Assembly: GCA_030426955.1 (NCBI GenBank)
Contig: JAUHXS010000002.1
Location: 124,001 to 188,000 of the forward strand
Reading direction: 5' to 3'
Length of the DNA: 64,000 bases
Source: Bacteroidia bacterium
GTDB taxonomy: Bacteria > Bacteroidota > Bacteroidia > Chitinophagales > JAUHXS01
The notes below the pieces were generated by a model. It was not told the origin of the DNA. It searched no databases and saw nothing but the letters and a program-made list of their open reading frames with translations. Positions 2,339 to 12,827 of the stretch are shown here, one piece after another. The translations under genes were made by a program, and so were the position numbers. Position 1 is the first letter of the stretch. Each line of letters opens with the position of its first letter.

Positions 2339-3571
2339 CTAATTGTTTATTAAAAGTGTTCCATTTGCATCTACTTTATAAATGCAAATTTGTGAATTGC
2401 CTCCAAACTCAGAAGTTCCAACAACTACAAAGCCTCCATCGCTAGTTTGTTCTACTGCTCTAGCAATATCATCTCCTTCTCCTCCAAAACGAAGAGGCTC
2501 TCCGATGACGTTAAGATTTTCATCAATAAATACCATAATAATGTCATCATCTTCTTGATTCGTCGGTCTTTGAGCACCAACTACAACGTATCCATTTGAG
2601 GTTGTAGAAAGGGATTGTACGACTTCGTTGGCTGAGGTTTCTATTATTTTTCCTTGTTGTGCCGCTGCAAATTCGTCTAGTTTTACAATGTAAATATTAC
2701 CAGTCGTGCTTTCTGTCTCATCAGAAACATCTGATGTACCAATTATGGTATATCCCGTACTGGTGCTAATAATATCTGCAGCAGTTAAGTTGGATAGGTT
2801 ATCTTTTATTTCTACTCCCTGAAAGTTCTGTCCTCCAAATTCATGATAACCAAAAGGCTGAATTTGCTTTTTGTTGTTTGTACTGTTTAAGAAAATAGTA
2901 CCCAAGTAAACCAGATCACCATTATTACTAATGGCAATGGCATTGGATATATCAGCAGCATCAGGTTTACCCTGAGGTGAGGATAGTCCGATTAGTGTAC
3001 CATCAGAACCAATTTTACCAAAGATCTGATCTGTTGTGTTCAAAATGTCTCCTGTCACCGACACGTTTTCTGTTGTACCCACAAAAATGTAATCGCCAGA
3101 AAGATTTTCTTTAATATCTACACCATAATCCCTATAGCCTGTTGCACCAATATCTTTGTGATCCCAAATAATACTGCCGTCAGCCTTGCTTATTTTCAGT
3201 ATATAAATATTAGAAAAGCCTTGATCACTTTCTTCAATGGAACCAATGATAACGAAGTTACCATCAGATGATAGAATAACCTTTTTTGCATCATCTGTAC
3301 CTACCCCGCCGTAAACCTCATCCCATTCTTTATTACCATTCTTATCCGTTTTGATGACAAATATATTTTGATCAAAACTGCCATCAGGAATGGTTGTGCC
3401 CACAATTACATATCCACCATCTTCGGTTTGTTTTACATCAAATCCATCTTCTTGCCCATCTCCTCCAAAATATTTGATAAATGCCCCAGGGTGATCAACT
3501 TGATTGTCTTTTTTACAACCTAGTATAATTGTGAGAATCAAAAAAAGACAAATATTTATCTTTGCGTTCAT
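2339..3571 (-). CDS. secreted lipoprotein with propeller-like repeats
   Basis: The N-terminus is a lipoprotein signal (hydrophobic stretch followed by LGC then KKD), so it is probably lipid-anchored at Cys19 and may be surface exposed. The rest, about 390 residues, is built from repeats of about 50-60 residues of the form DGGYVIVGTT, DGNFVIIGS, NGYVVVGA, DGGFVVVGTSE. Each is followed by a strand pair (IFVIKTDKNGNKEWD), as in predicted beta-propeller proteins of Bacteroidota. No catalytic motif is visible. Its ATG overlaps the stop codon of the upstream outer-membrane gene by four bases, which indicates translational coupling. It is the last gene of the nSTAND/SpoIIE operon. A role as an extracellular sensor or ligand-binding partner of that barrel is inference. 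Confidence 0.75.
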   Translation of the reverse strand: MNAKINICLFLILTIILGCKKDNQVDHPGAFIKYFGGDGQEDGFDVKQTEDGGYVIVGTTIPDGSFDQNIFVIKTDKNGNKEWDEVYGGVGTDDAKKVILSSDGNFVIIGSIEESDQGFSNIYILKISKADGSIIWDHKDIGATGYRDYGVDIKENLSGDYIFVGTTENVSVTGDILNTTDQIFGKIGSDGTLIGLSSPQGKPDAADISNAIAISNNGDLVYLGTIFLNSTNNKKQIQPFGYHEFGGQNFQGVEIKDNLSNLTAADIISTSTGYTIIGTSDVSDETESTTGNIYIVKLDEFAAAQQGKIIETSANEVVQSLSTTSNGYVVVGAQRPTNQEDDDIIMVFIDENLNVIGEPLRFGGEGDDIARAVEQTSDGGFVVVGTSEFGGNSQICIYKVDANGTLLINN

Positions 3572-4614
3572 TTTACTCTTTTAGCTTTGTAAAATTCCCT
3601 TATATAACCTACTGATAAAGAATAATTTTGCATCGTAAAATCGTTGTCTATATATTGAATAGATTCTAGCTCTGGTACTTGATAAAATGTTTTTGCTGTA
3701 GCCATATCGCTAAATCCCATATTATACCTTATACCTGCGAAAATAAAATTGGCTGTATTCAATTTGTATCTGGCTCCTAATTCTAGTAGGAGTGATGGGT
3801 AAAAGTTCTTCCTAATACTTTTTACATCAACAGATGCTAGTTCGACTTCTTGTGCAGACTCAGACTTTAAGTTTCCCGAGATTATTGTTGATGTAAGCAA
3901 TATATTAGCGGTTCCTCCCACCGCACCATATGGACGGAGCTTGAAATCATTAGATTTGAAAAAATACTTGAAATAAATAGGTAACTCTAGCCAAAATTGT
4001 GACTCTGTAAAGCTTTGAGTAAAAGTTTCTTGTAAGTTGTCGTCAGCATAATTATATAATCTTATCGACGCTAATCCTTGGAAGCCAATTCTAGCTCTTT
4101 CAAAAGGATATATTTCAGCCGTGATGCCTCCTTGTAAACCTAGAGGATAGGTGTAATTCGCCTGTTTTTCATCTCTAGATGATTGAGTAGAAATATTATC
4201 GGTGCTGTTATAGAATAGAATATTTAAATAAGATCGGTTGAAGCCTCCACTTGCTCCAAGAGATAGAACAGGAATGGTTTTGAAAGTGGAAAACTTTACA
4301 ACATATTCTTTAGGATCAGCTTCTGGATCAGATTTTTGATCCGGGTCTTCTCCTAAAATCTTTAAAACAATGGTATCAGCATCGGCCTGTCTATCTAGAT
4401 AAATATATGTTTTTGCTAATAGCTTATAAGCCCTGATTTTTTGATCTTTTGTAAAACCATTCTCTAAACACTTGGAAAGGATAGGTTCTACTTTCCTTAT
4501 CCTTCCTTCATCAAAACTTTGTTGAGCTTGTTTGAGTTTTTCCTCACAGTTTTGAGCCTGTGTTCCTAGCAATAAGCCAAACAGTAAAAGAGATAGAATT
4601 AATGACCTAAACAT
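3568..4614 (-). CDS. outer-membrane beta-barrel protein with TPR-like N-terminus
   Basis: I chose the ATG at 4614 because it begins a clean signal peptide (MFRSLILSLLLFGLLLGTQAQ); an upstream in-frame start would overlap the preceding gene. The mature protein starts with a helical repeat region of about 80 residues (CEEKLKQAQQSFDEGRIRK...LAKTYIYLDRQADAD). A PorT/OMP_b-brl-like barrel follows, with alternating aromatic strands (IGFQGLASIRLYNY, FWLELPIYFKYFF, LRPYGAVGGTANILL, FIFAGIRYNMGF). The last strand is YSLSVGYIREFY. The helical part probably sits on the periplasmic side. The gene lies 20 bases after the nSTAND gene and overlaps the lipoprotein gene, so the three are likely made together. 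I do not recognise a named gene. Confidence 0.75.
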   Translation of the reverse strand: MFRSLILSLLLFGLLLGTQAQNCEEKLKQAQQSFDEGRIRKVEPILSKCLENGFTKDQKIRAYKLLAKTYIYLDRQADADTIVLKILGEDPDQKSDPEADPKEYVVKFSTFKTIPVLSLGASGGFNRSYLNILFYNSTDNISTQSSRDEKQANYTYPLGLQGGITAEIYPFERARIGFQGLASIRLYNYADDNLQETFTQSFTESQFWLELPIYFKYFFKSNDFKLRPYGAVGGTANILLTSTIISGNLKSESAQEVELASVDVKSIRKNFYPSLLLELGARYKLNTANFIFAGIRYNMGFSDMATAKTFYQVPELESIQYIDNDFTMQNYSLSVGYIREFYKAKRVK

Positions 4615-4634
4615 AATTTTATATTTGCTTTCAG

Positions 4635-7600
4635 CTAGTTTGTCTCTCCAGCGGGAAGATTGGAGCAAGTTTTTTCATATTTAACGTCTGGGGCAATATA
4701 CTGTTCCCATTCTTTAGGCGTAAAATTTCGTGTGACAAATTCACATATTCTATCAGCCATCAAATCTGTTTTAATAGGATATATTTCTATATTACTTTGT
4801 TTGTCTCCTGTTAGCAGGTAGTTGCCATCATTGCTAAATGCCATAGATAAAATCCAAGAGCTTTCATCTTTTAAAACAACTGGCAAGTCTTCTGGTACAT
4901 TGATGTTCCAAAGTCTTACACTTCCATCTCTACTGGCAGATGCTAATAAGTTGCCATCTGGACTAAAACGGATTTCCATGATCTCAGCTAACTGCCCCGT
5001 AAAGTTGATACTATTATTGGTGTTTTCTAGATCGATTAATTTTACATTACCCTCAACATTTCCGACGGCGAGTTTTCCACCATCTTTACTAAATCGAACT
5101 GCTTGTATATTCTCATTTTGAGGATCTTCGTAAAATACTTCCTGATCGTAATTGTTCTCTCTTTCCCATATTAGGACTTTCCCATCTGATGATCCTCCAG
5201 CTACTAATGTGCCAGCCTGGTTGATAGATAGTGAGTTAATCCACGCGTTTGATGAATTATAAATGGTTCTGTTTTGTTTTGTTTTGATATCCCAAGCCAG
5301 AACCTTTTTGTCTTCACCTGCTGAAATAAGCTCTTTGTTATCTGGAGTGAAGACCAAAGCCCATACTATTCCAGTATGTCCAGATAATAATATTGGTTCA
5401 GCATTTGGTGTTTCTAGATTGTATAAGGCAATATTACTACCTTCATCACCGCAAGCTAGCCACTTCCCATCTTTGCTGATGCTGAGTGTTCTATTAATAA
5501 ATTCGTTTTCTGCAAGCTTAACGGTATAATTTTCAGTGTTATTGATATCCCAGCCTAAAATTTGGCTGTTTGCTCCAGTAGAATATAGTGTATTGTCCGT
5601 AGGACTAAAGACCAAACTTCTTACAGATTCTACGTGTCCTTTCAATTTATTATACCCTTCTTTTTCTAGTGTTTTTAGGGCAAAAAACAGCGCATTATAA
5701 ACATCTGGATCATATTCTTTACCGCCAAATTCAGTATTACTAGTATGTGCTTGCTTTGCCAGTAAAGCTTTAACCTGAGGATCATCTTTGATCTGGTATG
5801 ATTTGATTGCATTTGATTTAGCAATTGTCAACCTTCGTAAAGCTTCTGCTTTATCTCGTTCATTTACAGCAATAGCTCTTTGTTTGTTTGCTTCTTTCGC
5901 ATTCTTTCTTGCAATAAAAGACTGTTCCTCGGCAATTCTTTGCTGCGCCAATGCATTAGCAGCTTCTCTCTCAGCTCTGTCTGCTTCTGCATCTGCAATC
6001 TCTTTCTGCTGTCTCGCATTTTCAGCTTCTTCTTCAGCTCTTTGGGCTGCTGCTACGGCAAGTTGCTCTTGTTCCTTTGCTATTTGCGATTGACGCTCAG
6101 CTTCTTCTGCATTGGCAACGGCTAGTAGCTTTTGCTTTTCTGCTTTTTGTTGTAAATCAAATGCATATACCATAATGATTAAAGAAATAATAGCAGCCGT
6201 TCCCAATATAATCTGTACTACCCTTGCTCTTCTAAGTGCTCGTTTTTGTAACAAAACCCTTTTTTCCTCTTCCGCAGTGTATTCCTTGTAGCTAGTATCA
6301 AGAAACACCATTGCTCTCTCAAATGATGGATTGTGAGGGGTTGCCCAACCAAGTGTTGGCTTTTGTTGTTCTTTCCAGTTGAGTGCTAATTGTAAATCTG
6401 GTGGTCGCCACAATTCGGCATCACCTGTCTGGTATAATGCAGCGGCAGATGAAAGCCTTAAATACAATTGTACTGCTCTGAATTCATCATTTGCCCAATC
6501 ATTCAGGCGATTCCAGTTGTTTAATACAATCTCATTTTGGACGTCAATGACTGTTTTTACACTTATACTTACCTCTTCTGAGGGGTTGATAAAGTTGTTA
6601 CCCTTTTTTCTATATACATCAATAACTGGTTTGACCTGCTCTGCTTCACATTCTAGCCGTGTAACTATTTCACCAAATGCTCTGGGGGTTCTCGAGCTAC
6701 CTTTTGCTCCAGACTTATCTACTATCGTTTTGAAAAGCTTTTCACAAAGTACTTGCTGATCTTCGTTGAAACTATCATAAATTTCATCAGCGTGCGAAGA
6801 AATAGACTTTTCTATACCACCGACAGCCTCATAATGTTTTAACTCTATAGCCCCTGATTGATCTGTTAGATCAGACCAATAATCCCATGTTCGCATCAAA
6901 GCGTGCTGAGCAAGTGGTAATTTTTCTGGGTTCTGTTCTAGTTCTTTCTTTAATAAGTTGGCTAAGTCAGTTGCTAGTTCAACTTTACAAAGTTTTAGTG
7001 GCTCTGTTATGGTTGATGCAATTATGCCACTACTTATTTGAGAAAGGAGGTAGAAACTATTATTAATCAGACCTGCTAATCCATCAAATTGTGCAGCTTC
7101 TCCCATATGTGCTGCTCTCATTGATATAATGAGGCTAATATTGCTAGATTTATCGGCAACGACCTCTATTAAAGAGGCTACAAAAACTTCTTTTTCTTTA
7201 GTATTGATGTCATATTTGAAAACTTCTTCAAACTGATCAATATAAATTAAAACTTTACCATTGCTGACCTGATCTGAGCAGAGTTTACTTAAAGAAATCT
7301 CTTTGTTAAGCAGTTTTTTATAATTGCTTTCAGCTGTCTTTGTATCTATTGCACTGCATAAGTTTTTGAGTGGATCACCGCCTGGTTGTGTTTTGAAAAT
7401 AGACCACCCAGAAGTATACTCCGATATAACGGAACAATTTACTAAAGATGATTTTCCAACAGAGTTATCCCCAAGAACAGCTACAAATCTATTTGTATTT
7501 AGTTTTGAAATAATCTCTTTTCCTTGTCCATCTCTTCCAAAAAATAATTTTGATTCTTGGGATTCAAATGCTCGTAACCCTGGGAAAGGATTACTTAATA

Positions 7601-7652
7601 CATTTCCTTTTGAAACTTTTTTATCTGTTGTAATGGTATTTGTATCTGACAT
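4635..7652 (-). CDS. membrane-anchored nSTAND NTPase with C-terminal WD40 propeller
   Basis: 1005 residues. The N-terminus carries the nSTAND1 signature NPFPGLRAFE followed by FFGRD (residues 21-41). A Walker A GDNSVGKSS (61-69) and a Walker B IYIDQFEE (136-143) follow. The helical ATPase-associated region is complete. A predicted transmembrane helix lies at about 478-499. A long Ala/Glu/Gln-rich coiled coil runs from about 500 to 620, and about seven WD40 repeats fill about 665-985 (GHVESVRSLVFSP, GHTGIVWALVFTPDNKELISAG, MEIRFSPDGNLLASAS). STAND proteins act as ATP-driven switches or oligomerising scaffolds; here the NTPase and propeller lie on either side of one membrane helix. It is preceded by a SpoIIE phosphatase and followed by an outer-membrane barrel in one operon. 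Topology is inferred: cytoplasmic NTPase and periplasmic propeller is the simplest reading, which would span the inner membrane. Confidence 0.85.
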   Translation of the reverse strand: MSDTNTITTDKKVSKGNVLSNPFPGLRAFESQESKLFFGRDGQGKEIISKLNTNRFVAVLGDNSVGKSSLVNCSVISEYTSGWSIFKTQPGGDPLKNLCSAIDTKTAESNYKKLLNKEISLSKLCSDQVSNGKVLIYIDQFEEVFKYDINTKEKEVFVASLIEVVADKSSNISLIISMRAAHMGEAAQFDGLAGLINNSFYLLSQISSGIIASTITEPLKLCKVELATDLANLLKKELEQNPEKLPLAQHALMRTWDYWSDLTDQSGAIELKHYEAVGGIEKSISSHADEIYDSFNEDQQVLCEKLFKTIVDKSGAKGSSRTPRAFGEIVTRLECEAEQVKPVIDVYRKKGNNFINPSEEVSISVKTVIDVQNEIVLNNWNRLNDWANDEFRAVQLYLRLSSAAALYQTGDAELWRPPDLQLALNWKEQQKPTLGWATPHNPSFERAMVFLDTSYKEYTAEEEKRVLLQKRALRRARVVQIILGTAAIISLIIMVYAFDLQQKAEKQKLLAVANAEEAERQSQIAKEQEQLAVAAAQRAEEEAENARQQKEIADAEADRAEREAANALAQQRIAEEQSFIARKNAKEANKQRAIAVNERDKAEALRRLTIAKSNAIKSYQIKDDPQVKALLAKQAHTSNTEFGGKEYDPDVYNALFFALKTLEKEGYNKLKGHVESVRSLVFSPTDNTLYSTGANSQILGWDINNTENYTVKLAENEFINRTLSISKDGKWLACGDEGSNIALYNLETPNAEPILLSGHTGIVWALVFTPDNKELISAGEDKKVLAWDIKTKQNRTIYNSSNAWINSLSINQAGTLVAGGSSDGKVLIWERENNYDQEVFYEDPQNENIQAVRFSKDGGKLAVGNVEGNVKLIDLENTNNSINFTGQLAEIMEIRFSPDGNLLASASRDGSVRLWNINVPEDLPVVLKDESSWILSMAFSNDGNYLLTGDKQSNIEIYPIKTDLMADRICEFVTRNFTPKEWEQYIAPDVKYEKTCSNLPAGETN

Positions 7653-7662
7653 AAGGATGTTT

Positions 7663-9663
7663 TTAATTAAATCTTATTCCTATTACCAATATATCGTCTA
7701 TTTGTCGAATAGAACCTCTCCACTTCTTAATGGTTTCTTTTAAAACTTTCTTTTGTTCATTAAGCGTTTTTTCTTGAATGTCTAGTAACAAGTTTTTAAA
7801 TCTTTTGGTCATAAACTTTTTACTATTCTCCCCACCAAATTGATCGGCATAGCCATCAGAGAAGATATAGAACGTATCTCCTTTGCTAATTTTCAATTCA
7901 TGATTTGTGAAATCACTAGAGTGTGTGATTTCCTGTCCGCCGATGGCAAATTTATTTCCTTTAGTTTCAACAATTTCATTATCTCTTACCAGATATAGAG
8001 GCCTGTAGGCACCAGAATATTCTAGGTGCTTTTTCTTATTGTTTATTTTACACAGAGCTAAATCCATCCCATCTCTACTTTCTGAATCTTCCATATCTTG
8101 CTTTAAAGCTTTTCGAACACCTGAATGCAATTCATCCAGTATTTTAGAAGGTTCAGTGATGCCCTTTTCATTAACTATTTGGTTTAATAAATTATAACCG
8201 ATCATAGACATAAATGCTCCTGGTACGCCATGACCAGTACAGTCTACGGCAGCTATATAGGTGTCCTCTCCTCGATTTGCCATCCAATAGAAGTCACCAC
8301 TAACAATATCCTTAGGTTCGTATAGTACAAATGATTCGGGAAGGCTGTTATCTATTAATTGGTCTGGAGGTAAAATAGCCTCTTGAATTCTTTTTGCATA
8401 TTTGATACTATCCGTTATATCCTGATTCTTTTGCTCTAATTCTAGCTTTTGACCTTCTATTTGTTCTTTTTGCTTATAAATCTCAGCGGTTCTTTCAATA
8501 ACCCTTTGTTCTAGTTCATTATGAGATTTTTCTAATTCATTGATCATTGTGTTGAAGTTCTGAGCTAGTTTTGCAATTTCGTAATTGCCCTCTACTTCTG
8601 CTCTTTCATTCAGATTTCCTTTAGTAATTCGGTCTACTTTTTTTAATAACTTTTCAATAGGGTTGCTGATAAGCTTAGCATTATTAAAAGTTAATATTAA
8701 TAATGCCAATATGGTTACACCAAAAATGATGGAGAATTTTATTAATTCCTGTCTCAAAAGCGCATCTATTTCACTTCTGTCAGATACTACTTGAATAACA
8801 GCGCTATCATATAATTGAGAATTATTTCTATCCATAAAGATGTAATCATAGTGCTTTTTGATACCATCTTCAATCTCTTCAATATAATTGCTTTTTCTCT
8901 CGGTAAAAGTTTTAGCCATTATAGCCTTATGACTTTCTGGGACGTGTGCATCTTGATTGTAAGAAAACTCATTTTCTGCACCTGACCCGATGAAAAGTTC
9001 TACTGATAAGATACTAGCCTGCCTGGCAGAAATATTGTTTAATCGTTTTTTAATAATATCTAGAATGTCATTAGCCTTTTCAGAGTATAAGCCTAACTCA
9101 ATAATGTGTTTTTCATCATTGGTTGGTTGGTAAGAATATTTTTTAAGCTTTTTTGTCTTGTCTTCTATTGAAAATCTCTCTGCAATGAATTTCCCCTCGT
9201 GTAAAATCCCCTTTAAATATTGTTCGTAGCTACTTCCAAACTTAAAAAGGTTTAAGTTTAAGTCTTTCTCAAATGTTGTATTGACAACGATTCCATTCTC
9301 ATTAATGACATAAATATCTTCTAGTGTGGAGTCCATTGATAGTTCCCTTCTCACTTGATCTAAATCTATGCTTTTTACATTAGCCTCAGCGATAAAATAT
9401 TCGTTTGCCAACTTATTACTTAAAGCTTGCATACGTTCGTCAAGCCTTGACTCTATAATTTCTAGTCCAAAATCTTGAAACTGTAGAATACCTTTAATTC
9501 TATCTGATATTATTTCATTTTTTTCTTTCAGATGTTCAACTAAAGCCTGCTTATTATTATGATAATTTATAAACGCCAAAGCAAGCAGTGCGACAATTAC
9601 AGGTAAGATAATGCTGAGCATCAACTGTCTAAATATGGTTGTATTTCTTACCTTTTTTGCCAT
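7663..9663 (-). CDS. HAMP-SpoIIE serine phosphatase (sensor)
   Basis: I start it at the ATG at 9663, which shares one base with the TAA of the upstream gene (TAATG coupling); this gives 666 residues. Order: transmembrane helix about 14-34; an extracytoplasmic sensor of about 270 residues resembling a Cache-type fold; second helix about 307-326; HAMP domain; coiled coil; then a SpoIIE/PP2C catalytic domain from about 455 to the end. The metal-binding acidic residues are intact in VSGDFYW, AAVDCTGHGVPGAFMS, IFSDGYADQFGG and DDILVIGI. It should dephosphorylate a Ser/Thr-phosphorylated partner in response to a periplasmic cue. The natural partners, STAS-type anti-sigma antagonists, are not encoded next to it. 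Operon position suggests it acts with the nSTAND protein 10 bases downstream, but that is inference. Confidence 0.85.
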   Translation of the reverse strand: MAKKVRNTTIFRQLMLSIILPVIVALLALAFINYHNNKQALVEHLKEKNEIISDRIKGILQFQDFGLEIIESRLDERMQALSNKLANEYFIAEANVKSIDLDQVRRELSMDSTLEDIYVINENGIVVNTTFEKDLNLNLFKFGSSYEQYLKGILHEGKFIAERFSIEDKTKKLKKYSYQPTNDEKHIIELGLYSEKANDILDIIKKRLNNISARQASILSVELFIGSGAENEFSYNQDAHVPESHKAIMAKTFTERKSNYIEEIEDGIKKHYDYIFMDRNNSQLYDSAVIQVVSDRSEIDALLRQELIKFSIIFGVTILALLILTFNNAKLISNPIEKLLKKVDRITKGNLNERAEVEGNYEIAKLAQNFNTMINELEKSHNELEQRVIERTAEIYKQKEQIEGQKLELEQKNQDITDSIKYAKRIQEAILPPDQLIDNSLPESFVLYEPKDIVSGDFYWMANRGEDTYIAAVDCTGHGVPGAFMSMIGYNLLNQIVNEKGITEPSKILDELHSGVRKALKQDMEDSESRDGMDLALCKINNKKKHLEYSGAYRPLYLVRDNEIVETKGNKFAIGGQEITHSSDFTNHELKISKGDTFYIFSDGYADQFGGENSKKFMTKRFKNLLLDIQEKTLNEQKKVLKETIKKWRGSIRQIDDILVIGIRFN

Positions 9664-12600
9664 TATACTAACGCTTCTTTTGAAATGTCCTGAGAAAGTG
9701 CTTTTGATAAGTTGTCTATGATATCTGGGCAATCATAAATTATATCATAAAAAATATCTTTGGGTACAGTATATAACTCACTTTTTTCTTTAGCTATGAT
9801 CTGGGTACCGATATGATGGTTAGTTGATGTTAATTCTGAGATCATATCGCCTTCTGATAGTAAGCTTTCTGAGTTGCTTTCCTTTTGTATGATCGCTCCA
9901 TTTATTATGAAATAAACTAATTTTGAACTTTGTACAGTCAACTCTTTTGATTGCTCTAGCGTGATTACCTCGATATGTTTTCCCATAACATATGTTTTTG
10001 CATGAGGTATCTTGTCGAAGATATTTGCTTTCAATAAGTTAGTCAACTTAGACATGATTAATTTTTTTTCATAATCATCATTTGAAAAAAGATTTTTTAA
10101 ATGAGTTGCTCTCTCAGTATCTACTCGTTCTAAAAGTGTATTAAGAACTGTTTGGTCAAAATTTAAAATGTGCCAAGCTGCTATTTCGGATAGCATAAGA
10201 TCTGTATTAAAAACTTGAGACGAAACATTATTTAATTCTTCATCTGACGTTACTGTTAAATTATACAAGGCACAAGCTCTTGTCCATTGACTAATACTAA
10301 AGAAGTCTCGGTTTACTAAATAGTTAAGCGCCTCTCTATGATTGAGACGTTTCCTAGTGAAAATATTTTCCAGTTTGCTCAGGCGCTCATTGATGGAAGT
10401 GTCATCTAGTACTGGAAATACAATAGGTTTTAGCTCTTCAGCCATAAAAACATCTAGCAATTCAATAGCATACCCAATTCCCTCAGATGTTCCAGTTCGA
10501 ATGTTTTCTGCAACCAGTTCAATAGAATTTTTGTCATAAATAAGAGATAATAAAATAAATATCCTGTCTACTCCGGTCTGTGTCTCATTCTGTAGCGCAT
10601 CAATTAACAATGTGCTGTCAAGCTTATCTGAATCGAGCTCATCTATAATGGCCATATTGTCAATGAGGCTTTTTACTTCCCATTCTAATTGTAAACTTAC
10701 TTTATCAAAAATTTGCTCTTGGTATGCTTTGGTATTTATCTTACCTAGCTCTTGGTATGCTTTTGATACAACCTTTCTGCTAGGATGATTAATTTTATCA
10801 ATCACTAGGTGGGTCGACTTTTCAGTATTAATCATCGCATATGTTTTCAAGATATTGCTAAGTGTAATAAATGTTTGATTGGATTTCCTAAATGCCTTTT
10901 CCAATTCATCTAATACGTTATCCCCATATTCAGATAAAAGTTTGGTAAGTTGATGGGTATATTTGTTTTCTGATAATTGTTTGATTAAAATAGGATATAA
11001 TCTAGGGTCATTTAATTCAGACGCTGTAATATAAGCAGCTACCCTTACTTTTAGACTGTTGTCACATAATAGCTTTCCTAATAGCTCTAACGATTTTAGT
11101 GATGTTTCTTTTATGATTGCTCTTGCAGCATCAATTCTATCCGTTTCTTTTTCTGACGATATCAAGCTATTTATTTTTTGAATAGAAACTTTCTTGACTA
11201 CCTCAGCTTCTTTTTTTCCAATTGCTTTTTCTGCTTGTTTTAATAAGTCGTAGCGTTTTTCATCATCGGCTTTTTTACTAGCTATTTCTCGATATGTAAG
11301 TATTTTTAGGTCATTTAGCCGTTGGGTAACATACTGCTTTGCATTTTCAGAGCCATCTTTAGCCATTTTGAGTAGAGATAACTCTAAGGCACCTACGTCA
11401 AATGATTCTAAAAGCTTAAGACCTAAAACATTCTCCTTTATATCTTGGCTGTTGATCTTTTGAGATAATTTAGCCAGAAGTGCATGATTATCTGTAGCAC
11501 TAACTTCTTTTTTAGAGGTTAGAGAGTTTTTTAAAGTACCTCGATATTGTTGATATAATTTGAAAACTACTAATAACCAAACAGATATAATTCCAAATTG
11601 TATGGTGTTAACATGAATGATTTCAAAGAAAGTCAATGCACTTAATCCAGCTAAGGCAATTCCGGCAAGGGAGGCAGAAACTTCATTTACCACTCCATCA
11701 ATTTTGGTTTGTACATCATATCTGATTGAAATAGGGAGCGGTTGATAAAAGACTTTAAACGCAGGTACTTCAAACGCTTCTTTCAATGACTGTGCAAAGA
11801 GCTTGCAAACTGCTATTCCTAAAAAGAATAATCCAAACTCTTCTGTACCAGGGGTGTAAGAGAAAAGATAACCAATGCCGACAACAGCTAGTGTAAAAAA
11901 GCCTAACAGAATTGGTGTGACTAAAAGCATGAAACGAACGCCATACATACCCATCAACCTACTGTATACAAATGTCTTGATACCTAAACTGAAAATCATT
12001 ATAGCGGCTGAGAAGAGCGCAAAGAAAGCAGCAAAGTCTTCTTCTTTGGGGTATTGGGCATCAGATGCAATCATAAAAGAGTAGTGAACAAAGAATGCTA
12101 CAAACATGGATAACATGACGAATAAGCTCATGAAAAGCACATATCTATTTTTAAAAAAATAGCTAAGTCCCACACTTTTTTGAGTTGCTTTATTATCGGA
12201 GTCATCTTTCGATGTTTCATTGATATCTTTTGAATATTTCTTGAAAATAGAGGCAAGGGTAAAGCCTGCGAGCAGAAGGCTTGATGAGCATATGAATAAA
12301 ATATCTGATGTAGATGAAAATAACTTTAACAATGTGGGTACGGTAAAACAGGCTAAAACGGCTGCAAAAATTCTACCTGCATCAATTAAGCCGAATAACC
12401 TTTTGCCTTGACGTAAAGTAAATAACCTGGTCATTGTGCCCCAAAAACCTACAATACACAATACGTTAAATGGACCTAATGCAATGAATAAGATATAAGA
12501 TAAAGTTGCACTATCGTAATAAGTATATGAGAGTTTGATTAAGCCAACCAATGTTGCGATAATAATGAGTGCACCAGTTGCTAGTTTAGGAAAAGAGATC

Positions 12601-12827
12601 CATTGTTGTAATTGGGAGTAGATAGTCGTTAAGATTATACCTAAAAGCCCTGAAATCATTAGTGCATTTGCAATATCGTGTTCTCCGTAGGTGGATAGAA
12701 AAAGGGTTGTTGCAGATACATCAAAAATTGCAATGAATATTCCTAGAAAAAAAGAATAAAGCAATAAAAGACTCACTTTTGAGCCTTCTCCCTCGACAAT
12801 ATTTAATGCTTTTAGAATTGCTTTCAT
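9663..12827 (-). CDS. Npt1/Npt2-like (ATP/ADP antiporter-related) membrane protein fused to HEAT repeats and a cyclic-nucleotide-binding domain
   Basis: 1054 residues. The first about 430 form 10-12 hydrophobic helices of the major-facilitator superfamily type. They are similar in style to the nucleotide transporter (Npt1/Npt2) group: it starts with a short helix, LKALNIVEGEGSK, and helix-rich LLLYSFFLGIFIAIFDVSATTLFL. Residues about 460-900 are HEAT-like helical repeats (ARAIIKETSLKSLELLGKLLCDNSLKVRVAA). Residues about 920-1040 look like a cyclic-nucleotide-binding domain (YFIINGAIIQKES, LLSEGDMISELT, AKEKSELYTVPKDIF). The canonical phosphate-binding Arg of CNB pockets is not obvious, so ligand binding is uncertain. 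Transport of nucleotides is family-based; in free-living bacteria this architecture may instead be a sensor. It is the first gene of the operon. Confidence 0.75.
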   Translation of the reverse strand: MKAILKALNIVEGEGSKVSLLLLYSFFLGIFIAIFDVSATTLFLSTYGEHDIANALMISGLLGIILTTIYSQLQQWISFPKLATGALIIIATLVGLIKLSYTYYDSATLSYILFIALGPFNVLCIVGFWGTMTRLFTLRQGKRLFGLIDAGRIFAAVLACFTVPTLLKLFSSTSDILFICSSSLLLAGFTLASIFKKYSKDINETSKDDSDNKATQKSVGLSYFFKNRYVLFMSLFVMLSMFVAFFVHYSFMIASDAQYPKEEDFAAFFALFSAAIMIFSLGIKTFVYSRLMGMYGVRFMLLVTPILLGFFTLAVVGIGYLFSYTPGTEEFGLFFLGIAVCKLFAQSLKEAFEVPAFKVFYQPLPISIRYDVQTKIDGVVNEVSASLAGIALAGLSALTFFEIIHVNTIQFGIISVWLLVVFKLYQQYRGTLKNSLTSKKEVSATDNHALLAKLSQKINSQDIKENVLGLKLLESFDVGALELSLLKMAKDGSENAKQYVTQRLNDLKILTYREIASKKADDEKRYDLLKQAEKAIGKKEAEVVKKVSIQKINSLISSEKETDRIDAARAIIKETSLKSLELLGKLLCDNSLKVRVAAYITASELNDPRLYPILIKQLSENKYTHQLTKLLSEYGDNVLDELEKAFRKSNQTFITLSNILKTYAMINTEKSTHLVIDKINHPSRKVVSKAYQELGKINTKAYQEQIFDKVSLQLEWEVKSLIDNMAIIDELDSDKLDSTLLIDALQNETQTGVDRIFILLSLIYDKNSIELVAENIRTGTSEGIGYAIELLDVFMAEELKPIVFPVLDDTSINERLSKLENIFTRKRLNHREALNYLVNRDFFSISQWTRACALYNLTVTSDEELNNVSSQVFNTDLMLSEIAAWHILNFDQTVLNTLLERVDTERATHLKNLFSNDDYEKKLIMSKLTNLLKANIFDKIPHAKTYVMGKHIEVITLEQSKELTVQSSKLVYFIINGAIIQKESNSESLLSEGDMISELTSTNHHIGTQIIAKEKSELYTVPKDIFYDIIYDCPDIIDNLSKALSQDISKEALV

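Follow-up and report, generated by a model that had tools for sequence, protein, structure and literature searches.

STAND NTPases are known from immunity and cell death, where they serve as sentinels in the cytoplasm. In the FecA-FecR and FoxA-FoxR systems, the N-terminal domain of an outer-membrane receptor contacts the periplasmic C-terminal part of an inner-membrane partner (PMC11637429), and in Pseudomonas the phosphatase SiaA dephosphorylates SiaC in a partner switch that controls aggregation (PMC7647112). The operon described here shows likenesses to each of these and is located at positions 2339–12827 of a stretch of 64,000 nucleotides from a Bacteroidia bacterium of the Chitinophagales (hereafter the window; GenBank assembly GCA_030426955.1, contig JAUHXS010000002.1, positions 124,001–188,000). 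We interpret its products as a sensing complex that spans the envelope, has a STAND switch at its core and arose from a two-gene TIR-nSTAND unit, with a probability of roughly 0.55. A more tentative proposal, held at slightly under even odds, is that they represent a class of trans-envelope signalling not described before, whose inner-membrane transducer would be an Apaf-1-like STAND NTPase in place of an anti-sigma factor or histidine kinase, with a length-conserved stalk, a periplasmic WD40 propeller and exchangeable outer-membrane receptors, and which would derive from TIR-STAND by loss of the death effector. No description of this gene combination was found in open-access papers (subscription journals and preprints were not covered), in agreement with a first-pass annotation of the sequence, which had recognised no named system of this composition.

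Organization of the operon

The five open reading frames are all on the minus strand, at 9663–12827, 7663–~9663, 4635–7652, 3568–~4614 and 2339–3571, separated by gaps of −1, 10, 20 and −4 nucleotides given ATG starts at 9663 and 4614; the five genes and exact gaps of the first-pass annotation could be reproduced in this way. In this order they encode a protein with NTT, HEAT and cyclic-nucleotide-binding domain (cNBD) parts, a HAMP and SpoIIE phosphatase, the nSTAND1 protein with its WD40 propeller, a modelled outer-membrane barrel and a lipoprotein with weak propeller repeats, which bears out the domains called beforehand. The TIR-like gene that usually lies between the SpoIIE and nSTAND genes in relatives is missing from the window operon. 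A consensus scan for promoters and terminators gave no usable signal, with 63 promoter-like sites versus 53 in shuffled sequences.

Predicted structure and topology of the nSTAND protein

The nSTAND1 protein (4635–7652, minus strand) is encoded by a gene present as a single copy in its genome. The domain search identified the nSTAND1 domain (E=4.7e-71) together with WD40 repeats in the same protein, and the STAND NTPase motifs, including Walker A and B, are intact. The NTPase (6423–7589) is followed by a single transmembrane (TM) helix (6165–6221), a helical stalk predicted to be periplasmic (5793–6164), a seven-blade WD40 propeller (4776–5648) and C-terminal helices with a conserved Cys pair, which is kept in 49 of 63 relatives. 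By hydropathy, the one TM helix after the NTPase follows the positive-inside rule in every relative with a detected helix (85 of 85, the opposite orientation being seen in none), with a mean of 5.8 Lys and Arg per 15 residues before the helix versus 2.6 after it. The helix thus looks membrane-inserted, with its N-terminal side inside, in all 85 relatives, and the insertion on which the first-pass annotation had staked its scheme is upheld by this prediction.

The AlphaFold model, for which two alignment rows from plasmid records were left out of the input, has a mean predicted local distance difference test (pLDDT) score of 84, lower at the TM helix and the proximal stalk. It revealed a single helix comprising residues 444–620, of which about 124 lie past the membrane, giving a stalk of ~18 nm at 1.5 Å per residue, and after it seven four-stranded blades. 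The segment containing the stalk measures 202–204 residues in most of the 54 barrel-type loci (see below) and the other lengths fall near steps of seven, these being related and not independent sequences. The top Foldseek match for the whole model was full-length Apaf-1, with low overall TM-scores because the placement of the domains is flexible.

Outer-membrane and surface partners

The outer-membrane protein (3568–4614, minus strand) consists of a signal peptide, periplasmic TPR-like helices (~4291–4554) and an OmpA-like barrel of eight strands (~3577–4284). Its match to OMP_b-brl is below the cut-off, and its AlphaFold model (mean pLDDT 91) shows TPR-like helices at residues 57–126 next to the eight strands. 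Since the modelled barrel is of this small type, the protein is unlikely to be a secretion pore. In the alternative receptor, a TonB-dependent receptor (TBDR), the N-terminal domain is homologous to the TPR-like domain of the barrel protein, so that one TPR-like domain is carried by two different outer-membrane barrels. The lipoprotein (2339–3571, minus strand) has weak propeller-like repeats of the delta-60/DUF5122 type after a lipobox-like Cys.

Beside these genes, at 1–2276 on the same strand (start at ~2276), lies the gene of a giant surface protein of 1,893 residues, which is cut by the window edge and ends ~3.4 kb outside the window, at contig C11:120595. The protein contains SprB repeats, PKD domains, an Omp28-like domain and a Por_Secre_tail sorting domain (E=2.5e-10), the type-A C-terminal domain (CTD) of the type IX secretion system (T9SS). 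Its last 600–1200 residues are homologous to those of giants encoded at the same place in other operons (E down to 1e-82), and by this homology the giant is a conserved sixth gene of the unit. The SprB-repeat gene had been noticed beforehand as a neighbour that follows the operon; it is indeed there, and the gene at 3–2276 belongs to the unit itself.

Conservation of the gene order

Related loci were collected with an alignment of six nSTAND proteins against 84,980 species genomes, and 80 were chosen with their neighbours ignored. In the organism's own order the protein is uncommon (6 of 229 genomes at E<=1e-50). Directly 3' of the nSTAND gene, 64 of the 74 assessable loci carry either the TPR-plus-eight-strand barrel (54) or the TPR-type TBDR (10), most at gaps within about ±25 bp. 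The lipoprotein gene comes next in 46 of the 48 barrel loci that extend far enough to hold one. In 43 of 49 barrel loci the NTT-HEAT gene is found upstream; in the TBDR loci it is downstream (nine of nine). Upstream of nSTAND, a TIR-like protein is encoded in 41 and a SpoIIE protein in 10 of 71 loci. Seven genes, complete and in the window's order, are found in Bacteroidales metagenome-assembled genomes (MAGs; L015, L016, L038, L039 and L084). A reverse search of 345 evenly drawn genomes with a barrel profile returned seven full-length barrels (our own included), all of them inside the operon, and the five TPR-TBDR matches examined all adjoin an nSTAND gene, a total agreement of 12/12. Judged from these comparisons, in which tens of other Bacteroidota have these families in the order seen here, the linkage is far beyond chance, and the linkage of at least three genes on which the first-pass annotation had made its scheme depend proved to be widespread by neighbourhood counts.

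The partners that vary least among these loci are the outer-membrane parts and the giant, whereas the cytoplasmic outputs differ. This would suit an inside-out device, in which control of the outer-membrane parts (the retention, release or mechanical state of the giant) would lie with the cytoplasmic STAND NTPase and its partners, and the stalk could carry motion in either direction. However, STAND NTPases are one-shot switches and not cycling motors, as far as the family is known, and the hybrid sensor kinase often present in TBDR-type loci, like the STAS/HATPase genes sometimes found there, is typical of input signalling. Control from the inside is accordingly considered unlikely.

Several genomes contain two paralogous operons (L133–L138 and the genomes of L024 and L046), and within L133–L138 one operon has the TIR-like gene and the other lacks it. 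At L008, L076 and L077 (a Runella plasmid and contigs of Dyadobacter and Mucilaginibacter), the TBDR-type units lie inside a larger conserved gene block encoding GlgX, STAS proteins, an RsbW-like ATPase and an AGE-family epimerase. Barrel-clade NTT-HEAT/nSTAND units adjoin genes of an extracellular contractile injection system (sheath, Pvc16_N, gp19 tube and GH18) on the Persicobacter plasmids L007 and L014 and in the Sporocytophaga MAG L017, and all three have at the junction a divergent gene of ~180 codons with no assigned family.

Covariation and a model of the proposed complex

Covariation was calculated from pairwise distances among 33 complete barrel-type loci, with NTPase and NTT distances regressed out. 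The propeller covaries with the TPR-like domain (partial r 0.42), the barrel (0.43) and the lipoprotein (0.44); the NTPase covaries with the HEAT part (0.62, NTT controlled), and the value for the TPR-like domain and HEAT is 0.07. Such a pattern would fit a single protein that links an envelope module to a cytoplasmic one. An order running from surface protein and lipoprotein through barrel, propeller and stalk to the NTPase is supported by the predicted topology, by the presence of the TPR-like domain on two barrels and by the covariation of rates. The chain from surface to NTPase drawn in the first-pass annotation holds as regards this order; its direction of signalling, its contacts, its trigger and its outputs are conjectural.

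In the model proposed here, the giant T9SS protein and the lipoprotein, placed at the surface by their localisation signals, would form a complex with the small barrel. The TPR-like domain of the barrel protein, or the same domain on the TBDR of the sister subfamily, would dock on the seven-bladed propeller, which the ~18-nm helix rooted in the inner membrane is predicted to hold near the outer membrane. Binding or pulling at the surface would release or rearrange the propeller, upon which the NTPase would exchange nucleotide and oligomerise as Apaf-1-like STANDs do. The switched NTPase might then act on the HEAT/cNBD part of the NTT-like protein and, where present, on the degenerate TIR protein; in this organism the SiaA-type phosphatase may be a further target, acting on SiaC-like STAS proteins encoded elsewhere.

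Several observations weigh against such a complex. At L022, L032 and L059 the NTT-HEAT and nSTAND genes stand alone between housekeeping genes, and no full-length barrel homologue was found in those three genomes; this rules out that every unit requires the barrel, and part of the function would be independent of the outer-membrane parts. No output gene is constant across loci. The propeller also covaries with HEAT (0.35), and, as the 33 loci are related, a shared relaxed evolution of envelope proteins could mimic the covariation. Finally, a winged-helix His conserved in 93 of 95 relatives is Asn at residue 373 of the window protein (6534–6536), which also sits on a very long branch of the NTPase tree, and for both reasons this copy may be altered in switching.

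Origin of the system

Most relatives in Cyanobacteria, Acidobacteriota, Verrucomicrobia and Desulfobacter consist of two genes, a TIR-nSTAND pair. Of 13 TIR proteins from such pairs or from TBDR-type loci, 10 keep the TIR motif SxWCxxE intact, versus none of 32 from barrel-type loci. In the NTPase tree, which is a quick tree with some long branches (the window's included), barrel-type loci fall mainly into one clade of 66 rows, of which 60 are of the barrel type. L009 and L080 lie outside this clade, which suggests a possible transfer of the barrel-lipoprotein cassette from one nSTAND lineage to another. The simplest history would be that TIR activity decayed near the base of the barrel clade and that the gene was lost several times later, including in the window. 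On this view the system probably began as a pair of TIR and nSTAND genes and lost its TIR effector after that had decayed.

These relatives also bring in an anti-phage or abortive-infection function, in which surface or barrel parts would detect phage and the STAND protein would trigger death, since the units of other phyla keep the TIR catalytic motif and nSTAND1 was named from conflict systems (PMC8195603). Such a role is less likely in the barrel clade, given its degenerate or missing TIR partner, and active TIR immunity was rejected there on the loss of the motif in 32 of 32 loci. The active effector, in cis or as a partner, that characterises STAND immunity (Avs, TIR-STAND) is lacking in the window, where the operon has no TIR gene and the Pfam-type domain search detected no effector domain in the nSTAND protein. 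No TIR protein of this type was matched elsewhere in the genome, an empty search result being weak evidence, and PADLOC matched no defence family as a system. With the propeller placed in the periplasm as well, an anti-phage role is regarded as quite improbable.

The NTT-like protein and the phosphatase

The first gene of the operon (9663–12827, minus strand) encodes a protein of 1054 residues with an NTT/MFS membrane domain (~11538–12827), a HEAT region (~10248–11333) and a cyclic-nucleotide-binding-like domain (~9738–9920). The first domain search found HEAT and weak MFS and cNBD matches; a profile built from relatives then matched solved ATP/ADP carriers (E=6e-21) and the tail gave a profile match to cyclic-nucleotide-binding domains. 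This fold, and its fusion to HEAT and cNBD parts that the known NTT-HEAT-cNBD family also shows (PMC5381601), would be in line with nucleotide handling, in which the NTT domain moves ATP, ADP or NAD through the inner membrane, with the other operon products regulating or using this transport. However, the Pfam ATP/ADP translocase model does not match the window protein, and the positions that correspond to E245 and K527 of the plant carrier, on which exchange and ATP binding depend (PMC3306366), hold other residues in the window protein and in the relatives inspected (K155 was not alignable). Canonical ATP/ADP exchange has probably been lost, and nucleotide handling is considered very unlikely. 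As E245 and K527 are not kept, the NTT domain may instead be a sensor or scaffold.

The SiaA-like protein (7663–9663, minus strand) has two TM helices, a periplasmic sensor (~8746–9567), a HAMP domain (8530–8679) and a SpoIIE/PP2C domain (7669–8268) with all PP2C metal-binding motifs intact. Domain search and profiles identify SiaA as its nearest family, and its NCBIfam score of 270.8 bits, versus an equivalog cut-off of 700, makes it SiaA-like but not SiaA. SiaB and SiaC are not encoded in the operon; four SiaC homologues are encoded at other places in the genome, and two of these have SiaB-like genes, but no SpoIIE gene, next to them. One SiaC-family gene (L149:4915-5316, contig C19 of the same genome) comes directly after ftsA-ftsZ-like genes, near a SiaB-like and a PorP/SprF-like gene. 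The phosphatase and nucleotide-sensing arm suggested by the first-pass annotation is represented by its genes, with the reservations that SpoIIE is optional and that NTT exchange is probably lost.

Comparison with known systems

The giant resembles T9SS surface proteins in its type-A CTD and its SprB and PKD repeats, and differs from them in being encoded in a conserved operon with a STAND NTPase and not with gliding genes. With SiaABCD (PMC7647112) the organism shares a SiaA-type HAMP-SpoIIE phosphatase and homologues of SiaC and SiaB; here, however, the latter two lie outside the operon, and the phosphatase occurs in only 10 of 71 related loci. The domain order of the NTT-HEAT-cNBD fusion family (Major et al. 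2017, PMC5381601) is identical to that of the window protein. The available text of that paper predicts nucleotide transport for the family, whereas the window protein is without the canonical residues, and states no link to STAND proteins, unlike the situation here; these uncharacterised proteins would thereby gain a concrete partner.

Intact Walker A and B motifs, a WD40 propeller and relatives beside a TIR protein are shared with Apaf-1-like STANDs and with nSTAND1/TIR-STAND conflict proteins. The TM anchor, the predicted extracytoplasmic propeller, the outer-membrane partners and a TIR that is degenerate or absent set the system apart, which is related to TIR-STAND conflict systems yet distinct. 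If the proposed complex is correct, STAND NTPases would extend to envelope signalling, through a widespread family with a propeller across the periplasm, outer-membrane receptors and a giant surface protein, and the operon would be an example of a TIR-STAND unit converted to another use.

The likeness to FecA-FecR and FoxA-FoxR (PMC11637429) lies in an outer-membrane receptor with an extra N-terminal periplasmic domain and in a single-pass inner-membrane partner with a periplasmic C-terminal part and a cytoplasmic effector half. Here, by contrast, a STAND NTPase that bears its propeller on a stalk occupies the inner-membrane position, TPR-like helices form the periplasmic domain of the receptor, and that receptor is usually an eight-strand barrel and not a TBDR. 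Scans of two TBDRs gave no STN domain. Among the five operon proteins and the ten genes that follow, Pfam detected no FecR or other anti-sigma factor and no extracytoplasmic function (ECF) sigma factor (the remaining genome was not searched). Classical FecA/FecR-type membership was rejected because neither FecR nor a sigma factor is among the genes scanned. By analogy, the best reading is a TIR-STAND unit of immune type that was remade into a switch between outer membrane and cytoplasm and works like FecA/FecR signalling without being a member of that family.

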